From contig NZ_BCWP01000014.1 in the NCBI RefSeq assembly GCF_001592265.1, forward strand, positions 1 through 64,000: 64,000 nucleotides of DNA, written 5' to 3'. The DNA comes from Curvibacter delicatus NBRC 14919. GTDB taxonomy: Bacteria > Pseudomonadota > Gammaproteobacteria > Burkholderiales > Burkholderiaceae_C. Below the pieces are notes generated by a model. That model saw only the letters and a list, made by a program, of their open reading frames with translations, was not told the origin of the DNA and did no database searches. Every line of letters begins with the position of its first letter. The stretch's first letter is position 1. A program made the translations under genes and the position numbers. Positions 22,175-25,361 of this stretch are shown piece after piece.

Positions 22175-22765
22175 TCAGCGCCGGTCCACCAGCGCATGGG
22201 CGATGGTGCCCAGGTCCACGTACTCCAGCTCGCTGCCGATCGGCACGCCGCGCGCCAGGCGCGTGAAGGCGACGCCGCGGCTTTTCAGCGCCTCACCGAT
22301 CACATGCGCCGTGGCCTCACCCTCGGCCGTGAAATTGGTGGCCAGGATCACCTCGCGCACCGTGCCATCGCTGGCGCGCGCCAGCATCTGCTTCAGGCCG
22401 ATGTCATTCGGGCCAATGCCATCGAGCGGACTCAGGCGCCCCATCAGCACGTAGTACAGCCCCTTGTAGGCGCCGGTACGCTCCAGCGCCATCTGGTCGG
22501 CCGGTGTTTCCACCACGCACAGCTTGCTGGTGTCGCGCGCCGGGTCCAAGCAGGTGGCGCAGACCTCGGCTTCGGTGAAGGTGTGGCAGCGCGCGCAGTG
22601 GTGCACATGCTGCGCGGCGTCATGCAATGCACGCGACAGCAGCAGCGCGCCCTCGCGGTCCTGCTGCAGCAGATGGAGCGCCATGCGCGAGGCCGACTTC
22701 ACGCCCACACCTGGCAGCCGGCGCAAGGCTTGAATCAAGGCATCAAGGGAATGGGCGTCGGACAT
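22175..22765 (-). CDS. recR: Recombination mediator RecR
   Basis: RecR works with RecO (and RecF) to load RecA on single-strand gaps. The protein has 196 aa, the standard length. A helix-hairpin-helix ([20 protein letters not shown]) is at the N-terminus, followed by a zinc finger with four Cys ([16 protein letters not shown]) and a Toprim domain beginning [14 protein letters not shown] and including [11 protein letters not shown]. It follows dnaX and ybaB, the conserved dnaX-ybaB-recR order. Confidence 0.97.
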
Positions 22766-22905: not shown

Positions 22906-23238
22906 TTAGAAAGGGAACTTCATGCCGCCGGGGAGGCCTGGCATCCCTGCCGTGAGCTTGCCCAGCTTCTCCTGCGAGGTCTCCTCGGCCTTGCGCACGG
23001 CGGCGTTGAAGGCGGCAGCCACCAGGTCTTCCAGCATGTCCTTGTCGTCGGTCAGCAGGCTGGGGTCGATGGTGATGCGCTTGACGTCGTGCTTGCAGGT
23101 CATGACAACCTTGACCAGGCCGGCACCGGATTCGGCGCTGACTTCGATGAACGCGAGTTCGTCCTGCGCCTTCTTCAGGTTGTCCTGCATGGCCTGGGCC
23201 TGCTTCATGAGGCCGGCGAGTTGTCCTTTGTTGAACAT
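22906..23238 (-). CDS. ybaB: Nucleoid-associated protein YbaB/EbfC
   Basis: YbaB/EbfC is a small dimeric DNA-binding protein of 110 aa. Visible features are the helical N-terminus ([25 protein letters not shown]), the core strand region ([23 protein letters not shown]) and the C-terminal helix ending in a Gly/Met/Pro-rich tail ([14 protein letters not shown]). It starts 8 bases after the dnaX stop, so it is in the dnaX operon. The 140-base gap to recR shows no feature. Confidence 0.96.
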
Positions 23239-23246
23239 GTCTGTCC

Positions 23247-25169
23247 TTACGAGTTTGGTGAAATAGTGGGGTCGACGGGCTTGATGCTGCCAGGCACGAT
23301 TTTCGCGCCAAAGTCACGCATCATGGTTTGCACGAAGGGGTCTTCGTAAATCAGTTTCTCGGCTGCCTGCTGCTTCTCTGCGGCCGCTGCCGCGTTGCGT
23401 TTGGCCGGGCTGTCGCTCACGCGGCCGATCTCCACGCTCAAGGTGGCCGCATGGCCGGCCGCGCGCAGTGCGTTCTGCAGCCGCTCGCGGCTGGTGGGTG
23501 AATTGAGCGACTCGCGCTCCACGCGCAGCAACCAGTGCTCGCCGTCGCGTGCCACCAGCTGCGACTGCAGCGCCAGCTCGCGCACCAGCGCCGTCACGGC
23601 CTCGGCCGCCACCAGCTGCTGCACCGTCAGGTGCCAGAAGCCGCCTTCTTCAGTCGGCACCAGCGGTGTGCCGCTGGCGCCGTTCACGGGCGCATCGGCA
23701 CGCGATTCGGGTGCCACACGCACCGGAACCGCTACAACTTTAGGAGCATCCGGCGCCGTATCGACGGCACTAACGCTTGAATTTGATCTTGAATCCGCAA
23801 CAGGCGGCATGGCCTTGGCAGCATCCACCACCGGCAGCACCTGACCCGGTGGCGTGCGCTCCGACGTGTCCACCGGGGTCGGTGCAGGCCTTGCTGCCAC
23901 AGGGGCAACAGGTAGCGGGCGGGCGGCGGCAGGCGCTGCTGGTGCGGAAGTCGCCGGGGCCGTCTGGGTCGTTACGGCAGCACGAGGCACAGCCGCCACC
24001 GGGGCCGCAGGCGCCGTCGCCACCGGCGCTTCAGCCGATTTCAGTGTTTTTTTTTCAGCCGTGGTGACTGCACCGGGCTTGAAGGCCAGCAAACGCAGCA
24101 ACACCATGGTGAGTGCCGCGTACTCGTCGGGCGCCAGGCCCAGTTCGCCGCGGCCATGCAGGCACAGGCTGTAGAGCAGCTGTGTTTCATCGGCCGGCAT
24201 CAGTGCAGCCAGGCGCGCCATCTCGGTCGCTTCCGGGTCGGACTCGTCCACCGAATCCGGCACCGCCTGCACCACCGCCATGCGCTGCAGCACCACCGTC
24301 ATTTCTTCCAGCGTGGAGGCGGCACTCAGGCCGTTGACGCGCAAGGCTTCGGAGGTTTCCACCACCGTCTTGCCGTCGCCCTGCGCCAACGCTTCGATCA
24401 GCCGGAACACATGCGAGCGGTCCACGCTGCCCAGCATCTGGCGCACCGTGGCCACTTCGAGCTGGCCGGAACCGAAGGCGATGGCCTGGTCGGTCAGCGA
24501 CAGCGCGTCGCGCATCGAGCCGCGCGCGGCACGTGCCAGCAGGCGCAGCGCCTGGGTATCGGCCGGCACGTTCTCGGCCTGCAGCACTTTGGTGAGGTGT
24601 TCCAGCACCGTCTCGGGCGCCATCGGCCGCAGGTTGAACTGCAGGCAGCGCGACAACACCGTCACCGGCACCTTCTGAGGGTCGGTGGTGGCCAGCACGA
24701 ACTTGAGGTATTCGGGCGGCTCCTCCAGCGTCTTCAACATGGCGTTGAAGGCGGTGTTGGTCAGCATGTGGACTTCGTCGATCATGAAGACCTTGAAGCG
24801 ACCCTGCACCGGCTTGTAGACCGCCTGCTCCAGCAGGGCCTGCACCTCGTCCACGCCGCGGTTGGAGGCGGCATCGAGCTCGGTGTAGTCGACAAAACGG
24901 CCGGCATCAATGTCGGTACAGGCCTTGCACACGCCGCAGGGGGTGGCGGTGATGCCGCCCTGCCCGTCCGTACCCTGGCAGTTCAGTGACTTGGCCAGGA
25001 TGCGCGAGACCGTGGTCTTGCCCACGCCGCGCGTACCGGTGAAGAGGTAGGCATGGTGCAGGCGCTGGGTTTCCAGCGCATTGCTCAGCGCACGCACCAC
25101 GTGCTCCTGCCCCACCATTTCAGCAAAGCTGCGGGGGCGGTACTTGCGGGCGAGCACGAGATAGGACAT
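23247..25169 (-). CDS. dnaX: DNA polymerase III subunit tau (and possibly gamma)
   Basis: DnaX is the ATPase core of the clamp loader and connects polymerase and helicase. Full-length tau is 640 aa. The Walker A motif is [13 protein letters not shown] (about 45-57). A zinc module has Cys in SLNCQG and TPCGVCKAC. Walker B is in MIDEVHML and the sensor/SRC motif in [12 protein letters not shown]. Domain III ends near residue 368. An Ala/Pro/Val-rich linker (about 375-500) precedes the C-terminal tau domain. A run of nine A at codons 372-375 lies exactly at the domain III/linker boundary; both other frames stop within six codons after it. Slippage there would produce a gamma-like protein of about 375-379 aa. 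Confidence 0.97.
23731..23747. repeat. Degenerate 17-bp element inside dnaX linker
   Basis: GCTAC, spacer AACTTTA and GGAGC keep the 5-7-5 layout of the GCTAT-N7-ATAGC family with one arm mismatch. It lies in the poorly conserved dnaX linker. A near-identical inverted version occurs in arsI at 59756-59772. Relation to the perfect copies is inferred. Confidence 0.35.
24047..24055 (-). other. A9 slippery run in dnaX
   Basis: On the coding strand the codons are GAA AAA AAA ACA, a run of nine A (E372 K373 K374 T375) in a very GC-rich gene. With eight A the frame becomes AAA CAC TGA (stop after residue 375). With ten A, or a -1 ribosomal shift, it becomes AAC ACT GAA ATC GGC TGA (stop after residue 379). 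A GCGCCG/CGGCGC stem with a 7-base loop follows 17 bases later. Confidence 0.65.
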
Positions 25170-25251: not shown

Positions 25252-25349
25252 GTGACGGGCCTTCCCGCATGGTGAAGCGGCCAACCGGGTCAGGTGGGGA
25301 ACCAAGCAGCCCTAACTGTGGAGTCAGTGCCGGGGTCAAGGTCCGTCAC
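25252..25349 (+). ncRNA. ffs: 4.5S signal recognition particle RNA
   Basis: This is the small bacterial SRP RNA, about 98 nt, which binds Ffh and targets membrane proteins. The apical loop and Ffh-binding internal loops are recognisable: ACCGGGTCAGGTGGGG, then AACCAAGCAGCC, and the returning strand with CAGTGCCGGGGTCAAGG. The ends pair as GTGACGGGCC with GGTCCGTCAC (one G-U pair). Exact ends are set from this closing helix. It lies divergent from dnaX. Confidence 0.9.
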
Positions 25350-25361
25350 CTTACATCTTTC

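Follow-up and report, generated by a model that had tools for sequence, protein, structure and literature searches.

Does the run of nine adenines (A9) within dnaX of the analyzed DNA (the whole 64-kb stretch, hereafter "the window") serve to produce a second, gamma-like clamp-loader subunit, and if so, by which mechanism? The need for a short DnaX, gamma, in bacteria besides E. coli and Thermus is disputed: according to a 2012 review, most other bacteria keep no dnaX frameshift signature and may not make gamma (PMC3290774). Slippage yielding a truncated product is also hard to recognize comparatively (PMC1088944). Here the comparison is informative because, in more than one hundred genes, the stops of both alternative frames have survived codon changes and residue replacements. 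To the extent that sequence comparison can tell, this dnaX carries a Thermus-like slippage cassette that evolved independently and has been retained in the majority of the genera sampled from a betaproteobacterial family, Comamonadaceae, whose members are GC-rich environmental bacteria.

The A9 Run and Its Predicted Products

The window dnaX (Table 1) has a TIGR02397 dnaX_nterm match of 410.7 bits, its Pfam domains include DNA_pol3_gamma3 (238–362) and DNA_pol3_tau_5 (518–628), and E. coli tau/gamma structures match it at E ≤ 1e-113. Two open reading frames, named from their translations and resembling YbaB/EbfC and RecR, come after it in the usual dnaX–ybaB–recR order, and a small SRP RNA gene (Rfam RF00169, 55.9 bits) is located divergently, directly upstream.

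The nine A claimed in the initial annotation for codons 372–375 were confirmed on the sense strand, where codons 371–380 read GCT GAA AAA AAA ACA CTG AAA TCG GCT GAA (the plus strand shows nine T), and tau is encoded through the run in a single uninterrupted frame of 640 codons. The placement of the run at the end of domain III and the beginning of the linker was also correct: it sits 58% along the gene, ten codons past domain III, whose C-terminal limit (Pfam PF12169) is residue 362. E. coli gamma(1–373), the construct of the solved clamp-loader structures, aligns to residues 1–366, and thus the short product would be close to the crystallized minimal gamma.

Both other frames were found to be closed near the run, as had been claimed. 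With eight A, the reading is ..AAA AAA CAC TGA, the stop being the second codon, and the products predicted for eight and 11 A have 375 and 376 residues, respectively (...EKKH and ...EKKKH, calculated 40.8–40.9 kDa). With ten A, the reading is ..AAA AAA AAC ACT GAA ATC GGC TGA, with a stop after five codons; the product predicted for this run length, or for a −1 ribosomal shift, has 379 residues (...EKKNTEIG, calculated 41.2 kDa).

Table 1. Features of the dnaX region, in window coordinates.
Feature	Position	Strand	Comment
dnaX, DNA polymerase III subunit gamma/tau	23247..25169	−	640 aa, 640-codon ORF; tau calculated 67.9 kDa
A9 run, codons 372–375 (G-AA AAA AAA A-CA)	24047..24055	−	cds nt 1115–1123; candidate slippage run
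TGA reached if mRNA run is 8 or 11 A	24041..24043	−	predicted frame reading
TGA reached if run is 10 A, or by −1 ribosomal shift on A_AAA_AAA	24031..24033	−	predicted
Possible 6-bp hairpin GCGCCG/CGGCGC downstream of run	24011..24029	−	weak candidate, z −0.24 vs dinucleotide shuffles
ORF resembling YbaB/EbfC	22906..23238	−	named from translation
ORF resembling RecR	22175..22765	−	named from translation
Small SRP RNA gene	25254..25350	+	Rfam RF00169

Conservation of the Run in Comamonadaceae

The comparison set was built from the nearest relatives plus order and class samples. An in-phase run is present in 115 out of 125 non-redundant Comamonadaceae dnaX genes, 114 of them with A9 and one with A10, where GAA ahead of the lysines has turned into AAA. 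The remaining ten comprise one cut contig, eight genera in which nothing comparable is seen, and a single genus whose cassette is of the ribosomal type. All intact dnaX genes of the window's genus carry the run in identical phase, and the run is likewise present at all of the 80 nearest named dnaX loci, including those of Curvibacter, Rhodoferax, Ramlibacter, Acidovorax, Variovorax, Polaromonas, Hylemonella, and Caenimonas; with sampling at the genus level, it is present in 21 out of 30 Comamonadaceae genera with a readable site. Alignment with relatives, the check proposed together with the initial annotation, thus bears it out: 115 out of 115 aligned runs have at least nine A in phase, and the nearby stops of both frames are retained through many codon and residue changes.

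This distribution bears on another explanation, that the run is a product of chance, base composition, or a sequencing or assembly error. Some assemblies are indeed error-prone at homopolymers. However, the single A9/T9 of the 64-kb window compares with 0.04 expected from shuffles, and an identical A9 is observed in more than one hundred genomes that were assembled separately, none of which shows a break in the frame at the run; the conservation excludes such an origin, whose probability is negligible. The entire 3.76-Mb assembly contains five A9/T9 runs, and of those outside dnaX at least one is an intergenic terminator. Across the 701,690 bases retrieved from the dnaX neighborhoods of the relatives, runs of at least nine A/T occur once per locus (107 in 107 loci), which is the expectation from the dnaX cassette, and no A9/T9 beyond this cassette was found there.

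Selection on Nucleotides and on Flanking Stops

Both lysines of the run are encoded by AAA in 115 out of 115 genes, while elsewhere in the same genes AAA accounts for 37.5% of lysines (723 out of 1,929), and AAG predominates at conserved lysines outside the run (92 AAG to 23 AAA for the Walker-A lysine, and 110 to 4 for the lysine of FKV). The residue ahead of the run lysines is Glu in 108 genes, Gln in six, and Lys in one, the codon always ending with AA; the residue following them is Thr or Ser, the codon always starting with A. Linker residues neighboring the run vary freely in the family alignment.

One could suppose that the run is retained for the peptide E-K-K-T/S-L, or for another role in DNA or RNA, with no short product made, given that the two lysines never change and the leucine hardly does, in a linker that is variable apart from them. 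This is highly improbable, as AAA is never swapped for AAG in 115 genes, the out-of-frame stops are retained, lineages without the run also lack the peptide, and in other groups the same run and stops occur together with unrelated peptides (CAA AAA AAA ACT RA in family f50, AAA AAA AAA CAG YTR A in genus g44; see below). Peptide conservation as the whole explanation is ruled out by the absence of AAG and by these unrelated peptides.

Set against control positions, the stops are retained in both frames. The stop of the A8/A11 frame lies at most three codons from the run in 112 out of 115 genes, whereas a stop within two codons is found at 4.5% of other linker positions; the stop of the A10 frame lies within ten codons in 114 out of 115 genes, compared with 24% at other positions, and both criteria are satisfied at 1.1% of control positions. 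The A8-frame stop is distant in three genes, L017 (102 codons), L077 (8 codons), and L102 (11 codons).

The means of preserving the A8-frame stop vary. On the tree, about 17 switches in its type or place were counted, with no wide loss of the stop, and the residue following the leucine changed about 40 times with both flanking stops still kept. Each of CTG-A, CTA-A, CTA-G, GTA-A, and TTA-A (the leucine-position codon and the next base) preserves this stop; the counts are 86 for CTG-A, one for CTG-G, 12 for CTA-A, and eight for CTA-G. CTA makes up 1.4% of other leucine codons, yet it appears at sites where a G follows, TAG then replacing TGA. The stop is also retained after a codon insertion in L190 and with a wholly different codon series in L231. 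Since a formal independent-contrast test of stop-codon covariation had too few phylogenetically independent informative pairs for significance, the case for stop retention is built on the counts and the control positions. Taken together, the family-wide comparison shows that the A9 run, its exact length, its phase, and both stops are maintained by selection across the family.

Transcriptional Slippage or Ribosomal Frameshifting

The A9 run is quite probably a site of programmed transcriptional slippage, through which a gamma-like clamp-loader subunit of 41 kDa would be made in addition to the 68-kDa tau. In this mechanism, RNA polymerase would realign on the nine A/T base pairs, yielding dnaX mRNAs with 8, 9, 10, 11, or more A. 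Messages with 9 (or 9 plus 3n) A would be translated into full-length tau, and all other run lengths would bring the ribosome to an immediate flanking stop, resulting in a gamma-like protein of 375–379 residues, which would consist of domains I–III, the clamp-loading part, and lack the linker, the helicase-binding part, and the polymerase-binding domain V. The comparative evidence supports this reading, already put forward in the initial annotation, and from it we infer both slippage and the 41-kDa product; slippage would account for most of the short product, which presumably assembles into clamp loaders.

The main competing explanation is programmed −1 ribosomal frameshifting, the A9 run being an extended slippery site. 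The A_AAA_AAA heptamer within the run is itself a −1 ribosomal slippery site in the correct phase, the −1-frame stop is the one found within ten codons in nearly all genes, and one sister genus clearly has the A_AAA_AAG layout. Folding downstream of the run is also slightly stronger than in control windows (family mean z −0.48 vs +0.08), which counts against a purely slippage-based model, since pure slippage needs no such folding. On the other hand, ribosomal frameshifting leaves unexplained the exact length of nine and the strict stop in the A8/A11 frame: of the two stops, the one conserved more strictly lies outside the −1 frame and may be reached only by deletion or insertion of two. Moreover, A_AAA_AAG is absent from the site in every A9 gene, with A_AAA_AAA in its place, and an upstream Shine–Dalgarno-like stimulator is not enriched (family mean duplex energy −3.8 kcal/mol vs −3.6 kcal/mol elsewhere in the gene). 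Thus, Thermus-type slippage is favored, given that the A8/A11 stop is useless to a −1 ribosomal shift, no Shine–Dalgarno sequence is conserved, and the stem is weak, and frameshifting as the source of the gamma-like product seems rather unlikely.

The upstream stimulator was rejected on the family data, the duplex energy upstream of the run in the window gene being −5.3 kcal/mol. The GC stem noted downstream did not hold up as an essential element: a 6-bp pairing may be drawn, but in the window gene the folding of the downstream segment does not exceed that of dinucleotide shuffles, and across the family it stands only weakly above controls. An Rfam scan of the region detected no dnaX frameshift element near the site.

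The two mechanisms could also act together, slippage generating heterogeneous mRNA and ribosomes shifting −1 on the unslipped run as well. Signals for either mechanism are present in the A9 run, and neither stop has been given up; still, no sequence feature requires two mechanisms, and we regard the combination as very unlikely. Ribosomal frameshifting may nevertheless contribute at A9, as A_AAA_AAA is slippery by itself and the −1-frame stop is also kept.

Distribution of Cassettes Within and Outside the Family

Genus g86 of the same family (L266–L270) provides an internal contrast to the slippage cassette. A9 is absent there, and the site has the form GGAGTGCCGCCGAGCCGTC-A_AAA_AAG-YC-TGA (first base G or A) in five out of five genomes, that is, a Shine–Dalgarno-like GGAG, 15 nt, A_AAA_AAG, YC, and TGA; this cassette was noted for L233 as well. 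The −1-frame stop is kept in these five genomes, and the stop of the other frame is at a variable distance. Thus, the A9 and g86 layouts differ, each carrying the stops needed by its mechanism. Eight further Comamonadaceae genera have neither A9 nor the ribosomal cassette, and hence gamma is not universally required.

On the tree of domains I–III, the A9 genes group together and most run-less genera of the family fall outside, while run-less genus L236 and g86 fall inside the A9 group. The origin of the run appears to lie within the family and to postdate the divergence of lineages that lack it.

Outside Comamonadaceae, linker runs of at least eight A were observed in eight out of 55 other Burkholderiales and four out of 49 other gammaproteobacterial sequences. 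In family f50 (L271–L277), CAA AAA AAA ACT RA is found in seven out of seven genes, with an immediate stop in the A10/−1 frame. The stop of the other frame is near in five of the seven; genus g51 has no near stop there, and slippage and a ribosomal shift are therefore indistinguishable in g51. In family f43, the run is limited to genus g44 (L297, L298, L300, L301), where four out of four genes have AAA AAA AAA CAG YTR A, which differs in phase and comes with the stops of both frames; sister genera have no run. The f50 and g44 A9 cassettes look like independent gains. The suggestion of the initial annotation that the same trick has been used independently fits these data, with the run arising inside the family and parallel A9 cassettes in other Burkholderiales.

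Runs with stops within ten codons in both frames were also seen in further dnaX linkers of other families, namely, A10 in L125, L258, and L260, A9 in L151, and runs ending with A_AAA_AAG in L144 and L201.

From these distributions, it is fairly likely that Comamonadaceae gained the slippage cassette de novo, that decoding then turned over within the family (slippage, ribosomal, or neither), and that the A9 cassettes of f50 and g44 are parallel. If so, gamma is no peculiarity of E. coli but a product that has been invented again and again, and the family, offering natural slippage, ribosomal, and "neither" genera, provides material for studying the role of gamma and the replacement of recoding mechanisms.

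Comparison With Known Systems

The cassette is of a known kind, the Thermus type, newly found family-wide in Comamonadaceae by sequence comparison; we found no report of it in Comamonadaceae or Burkholderiales in the open literature, although a passing earlier mention is possible.

Caulobacter crescentus has another route to a short DnaX, proteolysis of tau (PMC5009743). Unlike slippage, proteolysis needs no slippery sequence, and nothing in the Comamonadaceae site points to it. Two-ORF dnaX genes of Chlorobi and others, for which transcriptional realignment has been inferred (PMC3711429), also contain a poly-A run, but recoding there makes the longer tau, which in Comamonadaceae is the standard product.

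The closest analog is dnaX of Thermus thermophilus, whose transcriptional slippage on A9 has been described: it too is a single-ORF tau gene with an in-frame A9 and near stops in both other frames, the shorter product being gamma (PMC1088944, PMC5009743). Heterogeneous mRNA was shown there and is predicted for the Comamonadaceae cassette. Thermus belongs to an unrelated phylum, and the short product of the window gene would have essentially no linker (run at 58%).

Finally, dnaX of E. coli is the same gene with the same kind of product (domains I–III), an A-rich slippery site, and a −1-frame stop. Its −1 frameshift depends on A_AAA_AAG, a Shine–Dalgarno sequence, and a stem-loop; the A9 genes, in contrast, have no A_AAA_AAG or enriched Shine–Dalgarno sequence and a weak stem, and carry a further stop, strictly conserved, in the other frame, while the E. 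coli layout is found in a sister genus of the very same family (L266–L270).
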